Assembly: GCA_024280835.1 (NCBI GenBank)
Contig: JAJRPJ010000004.1
Span: 1-64,000 of the forward strand
Source of the DNA: Candidatus Zixiibacteriota bacterium
GTDB taxonomy: Bacteria; Zixibacteria; MSB-5A5; GN15; JACZUZ01
DNA: 64,000 nt
Direction: 5' to 3'
In this document: in pieces, positions 47,940 to 59,075 of the stretch
Position numbering within the stretch: position 1 is the stretch's first letter
Layout: the number at the start of each line of letters is the position of its first letter
Notes under the pieces: generated by a model
Told to the model about the DNA's origin: nothing
Database searches by the model: none
The model's input: only the letters and a program-made list of their open reading frames with translations
Program-made: the position numbers and the translations under genes

Positions 47940-48144
47940 GCCCTTTTTGAAAGCCAACTTAGAGCCAGCAAAAACCCAACCAACCCACACCAATTCCTAG
48001 ATACAAGGGGCTTGTCTGGCCGCGGGAAACCTTTTATCTTCAGCCCCGTAGGGAATCATCAGGGGTGGTACAAAACTCACGAATACATTGCTTTTGAGAA
48101 ACGCTTTATTGCAGAATCAAGTTTTCCACCATTTAGGAGGTTTC

Positions 48145-50796
48145 ATGTTTGGTAGAGTCATTAGCAAAACTGCAACACTAACCGCGCGCTATGTTGCGCT
48201 CACATTGGCCACCTTGCTGGTCTGCAATTCGCAGTCTTTCGCAGATTTCAAGCGACTTGACCCGAATGCTTATCCAACATTTCAAAGCATCAATCTCAAA
48301 CTAGACCCTGCCCAAGCTGAATACAGCGGTTCGGTTTCTATCCAATTCGACATCAAGAAAGCCACCAAGACTTTTAGCTTCAATTCCGAAAACCTAACGC
48401 TCGGCAAAATGAAACTCAAAGGTCCAGATGGATTTGTTGGTTTTAATCAGGTTACCAATGCTGGTGATAGTAGTGTCGTTGATATTACGGCAGATGATGA
48501 AATGAAACCTGGGACATATACACTCGACATCGAATTCACAAATGATTTCAATACACAAGCCACAAGTCTCTACAAACTTGAAGTCGAGGGTTCATCTTAT
48601 AGTTTTACACAATTCGAATCCAATGACGCTCGTGAGGCATTCCCATGCTGGGATGAGCCGATGTTTAAGTTTCCTTATCAAATAACACTAACTGTTCCAG
48701 AGAATCACGAAACTGTTAGCAATACTCCTTTTCTTAGTGAGTCAACAACAGATGGCTGGAAGACTGTTGTTTTCGAAAAAACGAAACCGTTACCGTCATA
48801 TCTGTTGGCAATTGCTACTGGTGAGCTTGAATTCGTCGATGTGCCTGGAATGTCAACACCTGGGCGCATCGTGACAGTCAAAGGCAAGTCGGCAATGACA
48901 CAAGAAGCTATCAACGCCACTCCGAAAATTCTTGCCGCTCTTGAGGAGTATTTCGGTCGGCCATACCCTTACAAGAAGCTTGATATGCTTGCAGTCCCAG
49001 AGTTTTGGGCAGGGGCTATGGAAAACGCAGGGGCAGTGACCTACCGTGAAACAATTCTCTTGGTTGATCCAAACGAGGCCACAGTCTCCCAAAAGAGACG
49101 ACTAGCTTCTGTCGTTGCTCATGAGTTGGCGCATATGTGGTTCGGCGATTTGGTGACCATGGAATGGTGGGATGATTTGTGGCTCAATGAATCATTTGCC
49201 TCTTGGATGGGTAACAAAGTCACTCATGAAGTTTTCCCTGAATATCAGATGGATATTTCAACCGCTCGTCGGGCTAGTGGCGTGATGAGCAGTGACGCGC
49301 GTCCATCGGCCGAAGCGATTCGTAAACCCGTCAGTGACCCTGGTGACCTGACTGGCAACGTTGGTGTTATCTACGTTAAGGGTGAAGCGACGTTGAAAAT
49401 GTTTGAACGCTGGGTTGGCGAAGATGCATTCCGCCAAGGCGTGTTGGATTATTTGGCCGACAATGAATGGGGCAACGCTACGGCAGACGAGTTATGGAAC
49501 GCGCTTTCTAAGGCCTCGGGTATGGATGTCACTTCGGCAATGGGAACATTTATCGAAAAGCCAGGCGTACCACTTGTAAAAGTCGAAACTTCTCTGGATG
49601 GTAGTGTCACCTTGACTCAATCGCGTTTTGCAAATTTTGGTATCAAACAAGTCGAAACACCACTTTGGACAATCCCTGTTGAGTTGCGTTATGCCGACAA
49701 GAGCGGTACAAGAAGCCAAACAGTCACTCTCGCAGAGCCGTCTATGACTTTCAAATTGGAGTCTGATGGTGACGTCCAATGGATATTGCCGAACCCAGGT
49801 GTCAGTGGCTACTATCGTTGGGAGGCCTCCTCCGCGGCGCTCAATGCGATTGCCAACGCCTCAAGCGCTTTGGCTCCAATTGAAAAAATGGGCTATCTAG
49901 GCAACCTTGCCGCGCTTCTAGATGCAGGAGTTGTTAGTGGTGGTGACTATCTCAAAGCGCTTTCAGCCTTCGCCAATGACGGCGACCCGAATGTAATCTC
50001 GGCTGTAGTTGCTGGTCTCGGTAAAGTTGAAGGAGCTTTTGTCCCCGATGAACTCAAAGACCAATACGCCATTTATGTGCGGAAGACTTTGTCTCCCGCT
50101 TTGACACTCTACGGTCTTGATCCGCAAGATGGCGAAGAGGAAACAATTTCTCGCGTTCGGCCACAACTTATTGGCATGATGGTCAATAGCGGACATGACG
50201 AGAAAGTGCAAAGGTATTGCGAAGAGGTCGCCAAGAAGTATTTGCACGATCCTACCTCTGTTGCCCCATCAACAATCGGAATTGCTATTAGTGTCTCGGC
50301 CTTACGCGGTCATCGCGATATGTTTGATGAATATCGCAACCGTTTTGAGTCCGCCAAGAAACCAGCCGATCGCAGACGTTTTCTTGGAGCGCTTGGCCAA
50401 TTCAGAGATCCTGAACTGCGCGATGAGGCGCTACGGTACGCCTTTGAAGGCCCACTTCGCCCACAAGAACTATTCACAATTCCAGGGTCAGTTGCTAGAG
50501 CCTCCGACGAAAGTCAGGAATATATTTTTAACTGGCTACAGAAGAACTATGAGACTATCACTGCGAAAATGCCTCCCATGTTCAAGACTTTCTTGCCATT
50601 CTTTGCTGGAGGATGTTCCGGCGAATTGTTGGCGGAAGCCAACACATTCTTCATGGACTCGACTCGCTATGTCAAAGGTGTCGAGCGACAGCTAACTAGA
50701 GTTTCAGATCAAGTCAACGATTGTGTCGGACTGCGCGACCGCGAAGGACCAGCGGTCGCTGCCTACTTGAGAAGTCTATCTGAAGACAAGAATTAG
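48145..50796 (+). CDS. Secreted M1-family aminopeptidase
   Basis: Start set at the ATG at 48145, five bases after AGGAGG; the frame extends to 48088. 883 residues with a signal peptide (ARYVALTLATLLVCNSQSFA). Gluzincin signatures: the exopeptidase GAMENAGAVTYRE, and HELAH (H326-E327-x-x-H330) with E349 in the WLNESFA helix, coordinating zinc. The C-terminal half is an ERAP1-type helical domain (about 500-883). It trims N-terminal residues from peptides in the periplasm or outside the cell. A bidirectional-looking hairpin ends the gene. A second M1 enzyme lies 6 kb on. Confidence 0.93.
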   Translation: MFGRVISKTATLTARYVALTLATLLVCNSQSFADFKRLDPNAYPTFQSINLKLDPAQAEYSGSVSIQFDIKKATKTFSFNSENLTLGKMKLKGPDGFVGFNQVTNAGDSSVVDITADDEMKPGTYTLDIEFTNDFNTQATSLYKLEVEGSSYSFTQFESNDAREAFPCWDEPMFKFPYQITLTVPENHETVSNTPFLSESTTDGWKTVVFEKTKPLPSYLLAIATGELEFVDVPGMSTPGRIVTVKGKSAMTQEAINATPKILAALEEYFGRPYPYKKLDMLAVPEFWAGAMENAGAVTYRETILLVDPNEATVSQKRRLASVVAHELAHMWFGDLVTMEWWDDLWLNESFASWMGNKVTHEVFPEYQMDISTARRASGVMSSDARPSAEAIRKPVSDPGDLTGNVGVIYVKGEATLKMFERWVGEDAFRQGVLDYLADNEWGNATADELWNALSKASGMDVTSAMGTFIEKPGVPLVKVETSLDGSVTLTQSRFANFGIKQVETPLWTIPVELRYADKSGTRSQTVTLAEPSMTFKLESDGDVQWILPNPGVSGYYRWEASSAALNAIANASSALAPIEKMGYLGNLAALLDAGVVSGGDYLKALSAFANDGDPNVISAVVAGLGKVEGAFVPDELKDQYAIYVRKTLSPALTLYGLDPQDGEEETISRVRPQLIGMMVNSGHDEKVQRYCEEVAKKYLHDPTSVAPSTIGIAISVSALRGHRDMFDEYRNRFESAKKPADRRRFLGALGQFRDPELRDEALRYAFEGPLRPQELFTIPGSVARASDESQEYIFNWLQKNYETITAKMPPMFKTFLPFFAGGCSGELLAEANTFFMDSTRYVKGVERQLTRVSDQVNDCVGLRDREGPAVAAYLRSLSEDKN

Positions 50797-53970: not shown

Positions 53971-54003
53971 AAAAAACGCCGAGATGGCGGGGCATCTCGG
54001 CGT
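53971..54003 (-). terminator. Intrinsic terminator after the anti-sigma gene
   Basis: ACGCCGAGATG/CATCTCGGCGT (53976-53986 / 53993-54003) with six T's on the minus strand; 62 bp after the stop at 54066. Confidence 0.8.
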
Positions 54004-54065
54004 CGATTTCAATAACAATAGAACTTGAGCGACAGCTTATTGTTTGTTACTCAATGTAAATAATC

Positions 54066-55667
54066 TTACTTCAGCAGGGTCATTTTCTTAGTCTGAGAGA
54101 CATTGCCAGCTCTGAAACGGTAGAAATACATTCCCGAGGCTACTTGTCGGCCATTGCTGTCTGTGGCGTCCCATTCGACTGTATGGGTTCCCGATCCAAC
54201 TTGTTCGTCGACGAGGGTCCGGACTACTTGGCCCATAAGGTTGATGATATCGATTTGCACTCGCTCTGATGTTGCGAGGGTGTAGTCTATTTTTGTAGTC
54301 GGGTTAAAAGGGTTCGGGTAATTTTGTGACAATGCAAAGCCCTCTGGAAGAACAGCTGGTCCATCTGGGTTTAACAAATCTGCATCTTTTGCTAAGGCGT
54401 CGGTTTCGTCCAGTATTCCGACGCATGTTTCTCCGTCGGCATCTGATTCAGAGCTCTTGCTGAGCATGATTTTCTGGAGACCGTCATCGGATTGCGTTAT
54501 TGTCACTGTATAGCCTTTGGCTTCCAAATCGGAGATTTGTTCATCTGTCAACTGTCCACTGGAAAAGTCGAATCCAACTAAGTCTGCCATGTCCCAATTG
54601 CAAGAGCTGTCTCCGCTTCCAATTTTTATCAGTTTGTGCAATGCGCTACCAGAGCCATTCAAATCAAGTGTAGTGTTCCCACTAACAATTATCTCATGCA
54701 GATTCATGGAATCGCCATTGGCATCCGCTCCGAAAAACACTAGCTCATGCATGCCGTCTTCGCCCTCTGAAATCCATTGCATGTCGCCATCTAGATCTGA
54801 GGAGTTAATAGAAAATGATGTCGAGTCACCCTGAATAGTTCCGAAGCAAGCTTCTAGTTTGGCAAGATTTCCACCGAGCCTCCCAAGTACGACCTCGAAC
54901 AGCTCTCCTCTTGCAGGAACGTCACCTTCTTTGGAAACGAAGAAAGCCTTGTGAGCTTTTGTGAGGAAGTTTCCACTGACAGTGTCTACAATTGGAGTTA
55001 GTTCATTTGTTAGATGCACAGCTCCGCCGCTTTCAAAAGCGGCAATCAATAATTGTCCGTCTTCGAGTGATTTCAAATCTGTGATTTTGAGATTACAAGT
55101 TGTTTCACAGCCACTAACATCCACAGTAGCCCCTTGAACACCAAGCTCAAGTAATAGCGCAGTTATTTTATCGCTATCTAGAGCTAGGTCTTTGTTGACA
55201 CCTGCAAAAGCAACTTCGTAACCGATTGTATCTTGATACCTAAATGGAATCACTGTCACTGCTAGCAAAGCTACAGTGGCAAGCGCCAAACCAATAGACA
55301 GTCGTGAACGATTTTTGAATTGAGAAAAGATTTTAGACATAATTGAGTTCCTCTGTAGTTGGTACGCGTTGGCCTGGGCGTCATCAAGACGCTCTTCGAC
55401 GCGAGTCCGTAAGAAATGTAGCGGTGTTGTTGTGCTATCTGTTGCACTATCTAGAGATTTTTTTGTATTGCTCAGAGCTTGAGACAATAAGCTTTCAGCG
55501 TCAAACTCTCTGGTAGCCACAGAGTAGCATGCAGGACAACTCAGCAAATGTTCAAGCACAGCTTGATTGTTCAACATAGCTTGATTATTCAACTCTGTGT
55601 TACCTGAGCGTTTCAACTCTTCTAGTTTGAGTTTTGCTTGTTGGCAATTTAGTTGTTGGTTTTGCAT
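54066..55667 (-). CDS. Zinc-finger anti-sigma factor with T9SS-type C-terminal domain
   Basis: 533 residues; GGAGG eight bases before the ATG. A ZAS motif H40-x3-C44-x2-C47 (HLLSCPAC) in a short cytoplasmic domain is followed by one transmembrane helix (about 123-142, LSIGLALATVALLAVTVIPF). A long periplasmic part with strand-rich sequence and two cysteine pairs follows. The last 94 residues (from 440, LPEGFALSQNYPNPFNPTTK to QTKKMTLLK) are a FlgD-Ig/Por-type sorting domain, normally a type IX secretion signal on exported proteins. Combining both ends in one protein is odd. The ECF sigma gene lies 14 bp upstream, so it is surely the partner. Confidence 0.85.
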   Translation of the reverse strand: MQNQQLNCQQAKLKLEELKRSGNTELNNQAMLNNQAVLEHLLSCPACYSVATREFDAESLLSQALSNTKKSLDSATDSTTTPLHFLRTRVEERLDDAQANAYQLQRNSIMSKIFSQFKNRSRLSIGLALATVALLAVTVIPFRYQDTIGYEVAFAGVNKDLALDSDKITALLLELGVQGATVDVSGCETTCNLKITDLKSLEDGQLLIAAFESGGAVHLTNELTPIVDTVSGNFLTKAHKAFFVSKEGDVPARGELFEVVLGRLGGNLAKLEACFGTIQGDSTSFSINSSDLDGDMQWISEGEDGMHELVFFGADANGDSMNLHEIIVSGNTTLDLNGSGSALHKLIKIGSGDSSCNWDMADLVGFDFSSGQLTDEQISDLEAKGYTVTITQSDDGLQKIMLSKSSESDADGETCVGILDETDALAKDADLLNPDGPAVLPEGFALSQNYPNPFNPTTKIDYTLATSERVQIDIINLMGQVVRTLVDEQVGSGTHTVEWDATDSNGRQVASGMYFYRFRAGNVSQTKKMTLLK

Positions 55668-55681
55668 AAGTTTGGCCTCCC

Positions 55682-56323
55682 TTACTCTTGAAACATTTGT
55701 GAAACTTTTGACATTACTGCTGGGCGCTCTGATGGGGAGTGCGAAATATATCTCTTGTCTGCAAGCTTAGTGACGGCACTGTCACTTCTTGTAGATTGTT
55801 TTAGTTTAATTGGCGACAGGTTTTTTGATTCATGCTTCGCCAAAGCAGTCTTCATCTTCTTCCGTGAACGAGATAGACGGGCTTTGATTGTGCCATCGGG
55901 CTTTTGATATAGTCGACTCAACTCCGCGATTGACCAACCCTCAAGTTCGAAAAGCGTAATTAGAGTACGCTCTTCGGCTGAGATGGCGCCGAGGGCTTTA
56001 GTTAACAATCTGCCCACAACGAAGCCGTGATTCGGATCTGGGGTTTTCAGTGTCGCGCTGATTTCCTCAGAAAGCGGAATCACTCTTCGGTACCAAGGTG
56101 TCCGAAAGCGGTGTTTGAAGCAGTTGACGATTATCCGATAGAGCCAGGGGCGGAAAGCGGCGGTCTCTTTCAAGCTCGAGAACTTGGTTAGCGCTAAGAC
56201 CAACGCGTCCTGATAGAGGTCGTCGCCGTCCTCCCTGTTTCCCATCAGTTTTCGGCTAAATGCTTCAGCCTTCGGATGTTCTGGTTCCAGAAGTTTCCAA
56301 AATAGGTTCCTGTCCCGTTCCAT
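55682..56323 (-). CDS. ECF-type RNA polymerase sigma factor
   Basis: 213 residues. Region 2: HPKAEAFSRKLMGNREDGDDLYQDALVLALTKF (about 16-48), then FRPWLYRIIVNCFKHRFR. Region 4: EERTLITLFELEGWSIAELSRLYQKPDGTIKARLSRSRKKM (about 117-157). A basic, low-complexity C-terminal tail of about 50 residues (SPIKLKQSTRSDSAVTKL) is longer than usual. It is followed by the anti-sigma gene, 14 bp apart. The upstream region (56324-56471) has an inverted repeat CGTGTCC/GGACACG. Confidence 0.92.
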   Translation of the reverse strand: MERDRNLFWKLLEPEHPKAEAFSRKLMGNREDGDDLYQDALVLALTKFSSLKETAAFRPWLYRIIVNCFKHRFRTPWYRRVIPLSEEISATLKTPDPNHGFVVGRLLTKALGAISAEERTLITLFELEGWSIAELSRLYQKPDGTIKARLSRSRKKMKTALAKHESKNLSPIKLKQSTRSDSAVTKLADKRYISHSPSERPAVMSKVSQMFQE

Positions 56324-56411
56324 CCACTACTTAGACACAGGTATTTTGTAAAAGGTTGCGCTGGGGATGATTCTTTTAACTATTCTTAACAACTCAAAGG
56401 ACATTGACATG

Positions 56412-56471: not shown

Positions 56472-59075
56472 CTATTTGTCGCCAGTAGCGCTATCTGGAT
56501 TTAGTTGGTTTGAGAGTGCGTCAATTTGATCTTGTAAGTCGCGATTTTTCTTATTGACTTCATCCAAGCCTTTTTTGAGATCGGCTATTTGAGCTTCCTT
56601 GGATGATTTGGTATGAATAGTTTTGATGGCAGATTTGGCGCGATTGCGCATACCGAAATGTGGTTCACGTTCGGAGCTTCGCTGAAGCGCCGAGATTGCT
56701 TTCGGATCGCCAAGGGCGCCAAGCGCCCTGATTGCTGAACCACGCGCACGATAGCTAGGATCATCGAGAAAATCGATTAGCAGTTCGCGGATTTCGTCAC
56801 TACGCTTGTCATTTGTCTCGGACAATTTCGGCAGCGCTGATATGGCGGAGGTCCTGACTGCCTCTGGTTTGCCGTATTGCGACCATTTTAGAGCTAAGTC
56901 GATTCCACGTTTGTCTTTAAGTTCCACCAAAGCGCTGAACGCCGCCGAGCGTATCCAGTCTCTGTAGGAATTTTGCTTGAGGGCAGTCAAACAATCGCGA
57001 TATGCCTTGTCGGCATTGATTTTTGCCAGAGACTTTAGTGACTCAGCTCGAACTTGATAACTATCATCGGAGCCAAAGACTCTACGCAAAGCGCTGGCGA
57101 CGGCTCCGTCATCATCGAAATTTCCAAGCGCTATACAAATCGCTTTTCTTGCGCGTGATTCGGTTTCATTGAGAGCCACGATTAGTCCATCACGCGCTTT
57201 TTTGCTGCGGATATGTCCCAATGAATTGGCGCATTCTGCTCGGACTCCCCAAAATGAATCGTTTTCCAATGATCTCAAAAGCCCAGCGGTTACTTTTGTA
57301 TTGTGCGTAAACACTTTTAGAGCTTGTGCGGCGCGCAATCGACTGGTGACAGATTTGGCGTTCTTAAGTTGGTTGAGCCATTCTTGTTTTGGCTTTTTGA
57401 AATCCAACTTCATGAGGATGTCGCCGTCGGCATCAAACTCTACACGTGACGGACGAGTCGGTACGGCAAGAACGAATGTTTGTTTTTCTTCAGAAACTTG
57501 AACAGAAAAAGTTTTTGCTCCGAAATCGCCATTTACTATAATTTCTGTTTCGAAGTCAAAGAGCGGTGTCAATGAGTCAACTTTTTGTGTTTGCCTCACA
57601 TCCAAAGTCACAGTTTGGTGGGTTTCGTTCCATTTCCAAGAAACATCTAGCTTGGGGTAGCCCGCAGAGTATATCCATTGTTTGAAGAATTTTTCCAGCG
57701 GTTTGCCAGTTGATTCCTCTATCGCTTGTCGTAGATCATTGGTATCTACTGAGCCTTCTCTGTGGGTTTTGGCATAGTGACGGATTGCTTTCCAAAATAA
57801 TTTGTCACCTAGCTTGGCGCGTATCATGTGTAGTACCATAGCGCCTTTTTTGTATGAATGACTATCAAGCATTTGCTCCGGGTCTTCATAGAGATTTGTG
57901 ACGACATTACGGCGGTAGCGACCTCCGTCTTCGCCAAAGTATGAGTTGCGGATATTGCGTAGAACCATGGCGAATTCACCAGCTCCGAGGTCATGTTCTG
58001 TATAGAGTAAATCAAAATATGTTGCAAAGCCTTCATTGAGCCAAACATTGCTCCAATTTTTGGTAGTCAGTAAATCTCCCCACCATTGATGCGCCAGCTC
58101 ATGGGCCACCAAGCTGTGGCCAGTGTAATCTTGGTGTGCGCGTTTGTCGTGCATCAGTCTGCTCGACATTGTTGTCGCGCTGATGTTTTCCATGCCACCC
58201 CAAATAAAGTCTTGGACTACTACTTGTGCGTATTTTTCGTAGGGGTAGGGAACACCGATACTTTTTGAGTAGAAGTCCATCATGTCTGTAGTTTTTGAAA
58301 AAGCGAGTTTGGCGTTGGCCGAGTCTTTTTGTGGGACATAGTAATTCACAGGGATATCATTCCAAGAATCATGAATCACTGCGAACTCACCTATAACGAG
58401 AGAGACAAGATAGTAGACATGCGAAATATCCTCACGCCAGTGGAAGGTGATAGAATTGTCCTCATTGCGGACTGAGTCGATTAAAGCGCCGTTGGAAATT
58501 GCAATGAACCCTTCATCGACTGTCACTATCATCTCTGTAGTCAGGCGGTCATTGGGAGAATCCCAACAAGGGAACCAATGGCGGCTCTCTTCCATTTCGC
58601 CTTGTGACCAAACTTGCAGAGATTTGTTTGGGTAACCTGCGTCTGGACGAATGAAATACAGCCCTTTGTCATGGGGATGCGTAGAATAGGTTATCACAAC
58701 ACTTAGAGTCTCTGCGCTATTGTAAGAGCGTTCGAAATCGATTTCGAGCTTATCACCAAGAGTGCGATATTCTAAAGCCAGTCCCGAGCCATTGGTGACA
58801 TCACTGACTTGTAAATCCACGGCATCGAATGTAATTGAAGTCAATCCATCGTTAATCGGACTGAGGGTAGTAGTGGCGATTCCATCGATTCGACCATCAA
58901 GGATATCAATTGTCGGTTCAAGCTTTAGGTGTATTATATCAAATGTGCGCTCAGGGGTGAAAGATGAAGAGGAAGCGCTATTTGAAAAACCCCTGTCTTG
59001 TCCGTGGGCTACTCCGTTGATTAACTGTGAGGTGAGTACGATAGCTAGGACAAGCTTGCTGAGACAATGCTTCAT
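56472..59075 (-). CDS. Secreted M1-family aminopeptidase with HEAT repeats
   Basis: 867 residues, signal peptide (KLVLAIVLTSQLINGVAHGQ). Catalytic core: GGMEN (293-297), HELAH (H325-E326-x-x-H329) and E348 (WLNEGFA), the standard gluzincin set. After about residue 560 come repeated HEAT-type helices (RLRAAQALKVF, VRAECANSLGHIRSKKARDGLIVAL, KAICIALGNF, RAESLKSLAKINADKAYRD, RTSAISALPKL, RGSAIRALGALGDPKAISAL) about 30 residues apart. The last about 40 residues (KKGLDEVNKKNRDLQDQIDALSNQL) form a coiled coil. This replaces the ERAP1-type domain of the first enzyme. Probably periplasmic or surface-bound and acting as an oligomer or scaffolded enzyme. Confidence 0.92.
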   Translation of the reverse strand: MKHCLSKLVLAIVLTSQLINGVAHGQDRGFSNSASSSSFTPERTFDIIHLKLEPTIDILDGRIDGIATTTLSPINDGLTSITFDAVDLQVSDVTNGSGLALEYRTLGDKLEIDFERSYNSAETLSVVITYSTHPHDKGLYFIRPDAGYPNKSLQVWSQGEMEESRHWFPCWDSPNDRLTTEMIVTVDEGFIAISNGALIDSVRNEDNSITFHWREDISHVYYLVSLVIGEFAVIHDSWNDIPVNYYVPQKDSANAKLAFSKTTDMMDFYSKSIGVPYPYEKYAQVVVQDFIWGGMENISATTMSSRLMHDKRAHQDYTGHSLVAHELAHQWWGDLLTTKNWSNVWLNEGFATYFDLLYTEHDLGAGEFAMVLRNIRNSYFGEDGGRYRRNVVTNLYEDPEQMLDSHSYKKGAMVLHMIRAKLGDKLFWKAIRHYAKTHREGSVDTNDLRQAIEESTGKPLEKFFKQWIYSAGYPKLDVSWKWNETHQTVTLDVRQTQKVDSLTPLFDFETEIIVNGDFGAKTFSVQVSEEKQTFVLAVPTRPSRVEFDADGDILMKLDFKKPKQEWLNQLKNAKSVTSRLRAAQALKVFTHNTKVTAGLLRSLENDSFWGVRAECANSLGHIRSKKARDGLIVALNETESRARKAICIALGNFDDDGAVASALRRVFGSDDSYQVRAESLKSLAKINADKAYRDCLTALKQNSYRDWIRSAAFSALVELKDKRGIDLALKWSQYGKPEAVRTSAISALPKLSETNDKRSDEIRELLIDFLDDPSYRARGSAIRALGALGDPKAISALQRSSEREPHFGMRNRAKSAIKTIHTKSSKEAQIADLKKGLDEVNKKNRDLQDQIDALSNQLNPDSATGDK

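Follow-up and report, generated by a model that had tools for sequence, protein, structure and literature searches.

A conserved membrane anti-sigma factor of Candidatus Zixiibacteriota with a C-terminal T9SS sorting domain and a conserved, putative internal start

How can a single protein combine an anti-sigma part that works in the cytoplasm with a sorting domain of the kind carried by T9SS cargo? The question is raised by a gene in a 64,000-nucleotide stretch of a Candidatus Zixiibacteriota genome (the window), in which an earlier note had described a zinc motif, one transmembrane helix and a C-terminal YPNPFNP/FlgD-Ig domain within one protein. ORF translation yielded one uninterrupted frame with no internal stop, and the primary start is the ATG at 55667, with a strong Shine-Dalgarno sequence, AAGGGAGG, 5' of the ATG. 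Together with ligand conservation, hydropathy and profile scores, this frame confirms the described combination. The fusion of anti-sigma factor and T9SS tail is real; it is a single protein, and the tail is not a separate gene. The features of the operon are collected in Table 1. An AF2 model of the full protein was poor overall (pLDDT 56.8), and we used it for the alpha/beta domain and the tail only.

Table 1. Features of the sigma/anti-sigma operon, with window coordinates.
Feature	Coordinates	Strand	Evidence
Anti-sigma factor with T9SS sorting domain, 533 aa	54066..55667 (stop included)	-	ORF; homologous loci in the order: 59, of which 23 are tailed likewise
ZAS domain, Cys8 and H40-x3-C44-x2-C47	55527..55646	-	Ligands invariant in 23 homologues; helical in AF2 model
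Internal Shine-Dalgarno AGAGGA, 8 nt 5' of internal ATG	55349..55354	-	Sequence; nucleotide-level conservation in homologues
Internal in-frame start ATG (Met110), predicted 424-aa product without ZAS	55338..55340	-	With Shine-Dalgarno in 61/61 extended and 0/21 short homologues; small +2 residue
Sole transmembrane helix, aa 123-141, positive-inside flank N-terminal to helix	55245..55301	-	Hydropathy and charge
Periplasmic alpha/beta domain, aa 142-232, conserved C187-x3-C191	54972..55244	-	AF2 pLDDT ~80; weak PII/ferredoxin-like matches; cysteine conservation
Variable, mostly disordered linker (~200 aa), aa 233-440	54348..54971	-	pLDDT mostly <50; length and sequence differ between homologues
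T9SS type A sorting domain (Por_Secre_tail/FlgD-Ig), from YPNPFNP (aa 450-456)	54069..54323	-	TIGR04183 score; FlgD-Ig-like fold, also CTD in T9SS translocon 8gl6_D
ECF sigma factor, 213 aa, same orientation, 15 bp upstream of anti-sigma	55682..56323	-	Sigma70_r2 and r4_2 above cut-off; TIGR02937 60.6 bits; pairing across the order
Putative ECF autoregulatory promoter AACC-N17-GTCTAA, immediately 5' of sigma start	56330..56357	-	Motif precedes most homologous sigma genes
Terminator-like hairpin ending the two-gene operon, 12-bp stem (7 GC) then T run	53975..54004	-	Consensus match only

The N-terminal part carries the ligand set expected of a ZAS domain. The motif HLLSCPAC occupies residues 40–47, and Cys8, His40, Cys44 and Cys47 are invariant in an alignment of 23 homologues. 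Pfam zf-HC2 matched the N-terminus below threshold (12.4 bits against a cut-off of 22.2), so the zinc assignment draws on the conserved ligands and the adjoining ECF sigma gene rather than on the family score. That gene is co-oriented with the anti-sigma gene, as expected of a ZAS anti-sigma factor. A single helix at about residues 123–141 is present in each of the 23 tailed homologues, with a mean of 4.1 K/R flanking it on the N-terminal side versus 1.0 on the C-terminal side. This charge excess N-terminal to the sole helix argues for an N-in orientation with a periplasmic tail; hydropathy and flanking charge gave the same topology in 23/23. Taken together, these features support a membrane anti-sigma factor that is predicted to bind and inhibit its sigma partner. 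Two further observations concern this half of the protein. The periplasmic alpha/beta domain contains a nearly invariant Cys187-x3-Cys191 (window 55095-55109) that could be a disulfide or a metal site and part of sensing. In homologues L121, L124, L128, L130, L134 and L137 the H-x3-C-x2-C motif is lost, while the N-terminal region, sigma partner and internal start are retained.

The opposite end, residues 449–531, exceeded the cut-off of three profiles: TIGR04183 (41.6 bits, cut-off 23), PF18962 (36, cut-off 27) and PF13860 (33.2, cut-off 27). In the AF2 model the tail forms an Ig-like sandwich; it resembles FlgD and, less closely, the translocon-bound CTD 8gl6_D (TM-score 0.61 by target length, from a low-confidence model). 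In 12 aligned tailed homologues the hallmarks of type A, PNPFNP and the terminal Lys positions among them, do not vary, and they are more conserved than the adjacent linker. Across the 23 tailed loci the tail always lies at the exact C-terminus, as in cargo, and PNPFNP, where intact, stands 78–83 residues from the end. These properties, together with the scores of TIGR04183 and PF18962, speak against a tail that is an Ig-like interaction or stability domain no longer engaging the T9SS, on a protein that is an ordinary envelope-stress anti-sigma factor. We consider that reading unlikely, while noting in its favour that PF13860 describes a general Ig-like fold also found in FlgD, that tail-less paralogues exist, and that L110, L131 and L139, otherwise normal tailed anti-sigma factors, have degenerate tails that lost the full YPNPFNP.

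Lys528 in the tail is invariant in the 12 homologues, and a weak phmmer match pairs it with a Lys in 8glj_D, another translocon-bound CTD. PorV is contacted by a highly conserved CTD Lys (PMC10994853), and we infer that Lys528 is that same residue. In a tail tree, which is poorly resolved, the anti-sigma tails grouped apart from the cargo of this genome, with 3 changes versus 17.4 in shuffles. This clustering suggests that the fusion is old and has been kept.

The host encodes the T9SS translocon (SprA, PorV, PorU) that cargo would use. SprA is a protein of 2148 residues (C12:477684-481274) and occurs in 79/81 genomes of the order, 76 of them, this genome included, above the family cut-off. 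The PorV family is present in 81/81 genomes, with 15 matches in this one, and PorU was found at E=1e-200. GldM gave no match, but control genomes were silent in the same search too, so the lack of a match carries no information. Two more PorU/C25-like peptidases besides the PorU candidate lie at G000:C13:126491-127651 and G000:C13:356198-357361. TIGR04183 has 47 matches in the genome, from which 44 tail proteins were recovered; those with a complete N-terminus mostly begin with a hydrophobic signal, bar a few with doubtful starts. Among the 44 we found no other protein with the layout of cytoplasmic domain plus helix. The full-length anti-sigma factor lacks an N-terminal Sec signal, its hydrophobic segment beginning at residue 123, after the cytoplasmic ZAS domain.

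The earlier note had held that the anti-sigma part and the sorting domain could not both work in the ordinary way at once. Overlooked here was a conserved internal start codon that would allow two forms from one gene, one with the ZAS domain and one that bears the tail without it. Met110 lies 13 residues N-terminal to the helix behind its own Shine-Dalgarno sequence, and the same arrangement recurs in homologues. The homologues split cleanly by the number of residues after the helix, 96–122 in a short class and 152–457 in an extended class. In a first sample, with L087 assigned by hand to ATG96, L104 omitted as truncated at a contig end, and the Shine-Dalgarno rule and length classes fixed after the sample was seen, an in-frame start with a Shine-Dalgarno sequence was present in 44/44 extended and 0/15 short homologues. 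The start codon is ATG, and once GTG (L143). A second sample, mostly from other families of the class, gave 17/17 extended, 0/6 short and 0/16 unrelated ZAS anti-sigma factors, with a length limit of 125 (L250 has 130), L252 (cut) left out though its start is present, and L247 (cut) counted as short. The homologues are related, and the counts therefore exaggerate the number of independent cases: about 3 changes of the trait suffice on the sigma tree.

The strength of the Shine-Dalgarno pairing gives a second line of evidence. Mean duplex energy was -6.9 kcal/mol at 46 internal starts versus -2.3 at 408 further in-frame ATGs in these genes, the 46 being the homologues then classed as tailed or of at least 240 residues, including L114 and L119, which were later reclassed as short and lack the Shine-Dalgarno sequence. 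Synonymous recoding of the 46 homologues gave a null of -3.8 +/- 0.34 kcal/mol, a value from which the observed mean departs by z=-9 (0/400 resamples). The window's own internal site is moderate, at -6.0 kcal/mol. The Shine-Dalgarno core occurs in all three codon phases (33/19/9), with K-E, I-G and L-G among the residue pairs encoded at that position; L143, with Val in place of Met, retains a GTG. What is conserved is thus the nucleotides. Directly after the internal Met stands S, A, T or G in 48/61 cases; for Mets elsewhere inside the proteins the count is 110/348 (odds ratio 8, p=5e-12). Real N-termini show a similar preference. RNA folding around the internal start revealed no unusual structure. 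The in-frame start and its Shine-Dalgarno sequence are therefore conserved beyond what the protein requires, as in a dual-start gene. Pairing stronger than the synonymous null, the three codon phases and the small next residue indicate that the gene probably makes both forms, a full-length anti-sigma factor and a T9SS-tailed isoform without the ZAS domain.

The short form might itself be normal T9SS cargo. M110 SKIFSQFKNRSR and the following 18 hydrophobic residues would then act as a cleaved Sec signal, the product would be exported via SprA, and the gene would encode a membrane anti-sigma factor and a secreted surface protein. Signal, domain and CTD make the standard cargo layout, the 18-residue hydrophobic core is of a length also seen among the cargo signals of this genome (median 15, up to 24), and an A-x-A at residues 153–155 is invariant in 12 aligned tailed homologues. 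The same segment, however, has to anchor the full-length form. A153–A155 is moreover part of a strand predicted for the alpha/beta domain, 12 residues past the invariant Pro141, and several short homologues without a tail have A-x-A too; its role is thus probably structural, and we set it aside as a signal-peptidase site. The short form has no convincing cleavage site, which makes its cleavage and export less likely. This is the main alternative to the mechanism proposed below, and we regard it as rather improbable.

Alternatively, no initiation occurs at Met110; the Shine-Dalgarno-like sequence and the Met ahead of the helix would then reflect a peptide motif, or a programmed pause of the ribosome that aids membrane insertion. 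Pauses of this type are known near membrane segments in E. coli, but were reported at codons 16–60 and before TM2, not at codons 80–110 before a sole TM (PMC4359368). K-E-x-x-x-M does recur as a peptide motif; the excess over the synonymous null, the three codon phases, the start-like spacing, the ATG (GTG in L143) and the N-terminus-like +2 residue all argue against this explanation, as does the lack of such a site in short paralogues and in other single-TM ZAS proteins. We judge it very unlikely and retain translation from Met110 as the better reading.

Across the 81 genomes of the order we recovered 59 homologous loci with the full sigma/anti-sigma pair or its anti-sigma gene. The tail is present in 23/59 loci (21/81 genomes) and missing from 36/59, one of which, L104, is cut by a contig end; three further tailed loci occur in another family of the class. 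The named relatives are mostly Candidatus Zixiibacteriota MAGs, with some complete chromosomes. The window was taken from a 20-contig draft assembly; an assembly error or chance fusion in one genome has practically no probability left, being excluded by the homologous fusions in the order and elsewhere, single-contig genomes such as CP070824 and CP070674 among them. The earlier note's own worry, that homologues might lack the tail or reveal it as an artefact or a separate gene, is likewise answered by the same tail in 23 + 3 loci. Since 36/59 homologues in the order do without it, the tail is dispensable for the basic circuit.

In neighbourhood clustering, the sigma and anti-sigma genes were the only constant members of the tailed loci. 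The short tail-less operons L097, L106, L108, L109, L117, L118, L126, L129, L132 and L138 have in common a neighbour that looks like DUF1573, named from its sequence, which occurs in no tailed locus; the short class possibly responds to a different signal. Tailed L094, L100, L101 and L103 (and L143) lie near a large membrane protein resembling M56/BlaR1, mostly together with a BlaI-like repressor, both named from their sequences. In the window itself, two M1-aminopeptidase-like proteins flank the region (48088-50796 and 56472-59075), the second with C-terminal repeats, as read from the sequence.

A motif AACC-N16/17-GTCT(A/T)A, or a close variant, lies immediately 5' of most homologous sigma starts. 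At the putative promoter in the window, the distance to the start would fit a near-leaderless message. The strict motif occurs in this genome only at the operon's own site, and a wider regulon search with strict and looser motifs added one chance-level site. A motif before most sigma starts, with its only strict match here, makes autoregulation of the operon likely. Because the regulon search found the operon alone, there is nothing to connect the sigma factor with T9SS genes; none of these was seen next to the operon either.

Several known systems resemble parts of this arrangement. Transmembrane ZAS anti-sigma factors of the zf-HC2 type have the same Cys/His ligands, one helix, a position directly downstream of the sigma gene and an autoregulated-looking operon; they differ from the protein here in its sub-threshold profile score, periplasmic T9SS sorting domain and conserved internal start. 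T9SS type A cargo (TIGR04183; RemZ/RemA, PMC10994853) has the same CTD and fold at the exact C-terminus, and probably the same conserved Lys, but a cleaved Sec signal where the full-length protein has a cytoplasmic domain and membrane anchor. The nearest precedent is PorA of the P. gingivalis PorA–PorXY–SigP pathway, a T9SS CTD protein that feeds an ECF sigma factor controlling T9SS genes and whose CTD binds PorV (PMC7712824). PorA is a separate surface protein acting via a two-component system, whereas here the CTD belongs to the anti-sigma factor itself. Clostridium thermocellum RsgI likewise joins a cytoplasmic anti-sigma domain, one TM helix and a large modular C-terminus, which senses the outside, with release by membrane proteolysis (PMC12203970, PMC4711584). 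RsgI differs in being Gram-positive and in having substrate-binding modules, another anti-sigma domain and no T9SS. N-terminal proteoform pairs from in-frame internal starts (PMC11005335) are also two products of one gene with a common C-terminal part; in this case the internal start is conserved across an anti-sigma family. In the literature searched we found no relevant description of anti-sigma factors with T9SS sorting domains or internal starts.

The sequence shows the architecture, the topology signature, its conservation, the operon, the T9SS translocon genes and the conserved internal Shine-Dalgarno sequence and start; we infer use of the internal start in the cell, contact between CTD and translocon, proteolytic release and export sensing. 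In the proposed mechanism, the ZAS domain of the full-length form would hold the sigma factor in the cytoplasm while the helix anchors the protein in the inner membrane. The alpha/beta domain and long flexible tether would present the type A CTD in the periplasm for recognition by SprA–PorV. Its anchor would keep the full-length chain from being exported, making it a probe and not cargo. The periplasmic domain would be altered by docking, by competition with genuine cargo or by a pull at the translocon, and this would lead to sigma release, probably by proteolysis as in other transmembrane anti-sigma factors, such as RsgI (PMC12203970). The Met110 form, with the same membrane and periplasmic part but no ZAS domain, would vie with the full-length form for its partner, setting the sensitivity or threshold. 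We hold this model as a whole, an autoregulated ECF sigma/ZAS operon whose anti-sigma factor has a T9SS docking module at its periplasmic end and a second start that sets sensitivity, only tentatively, as slightly less apt to be right than wrong. The more specific proposal, that both isoforms probe the translocon and that competition with cargo turns secretion load into sigma activity, so that a dual-start anti-sigma factor reads out export, is doubtful. A truly C-terminal, periplasmic tail in a genome that encodes the T9SS translocon makes a docking or sensing role reasonable, and sensing of export status by the tail, as the earlier note suggested, is plausible.

The architecture is real, conserved and unusual; export sensing is our hypothesis for its function. 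The internal start is a new observation that goes beyond the earlier note and is, as a candidate feature read from the sequence, stronger than it. Of the routes by which T9SS bacteria could adjust export capacity to demand, PorA–PorXY–SigP is the sole one we found in the literature searched; its action is indirect, and P. gingivalis is the organism in which it was demonstrated. As a conserved anti-sigma factor with a T9SS signal at its physical end, the protein described here is a candidate for a direct sensor, and it belongs to a different phylum. The internal start, present in all 61 extended members, would characterise this anti-sigma family in general and would be hidden from single-start gene annotation.
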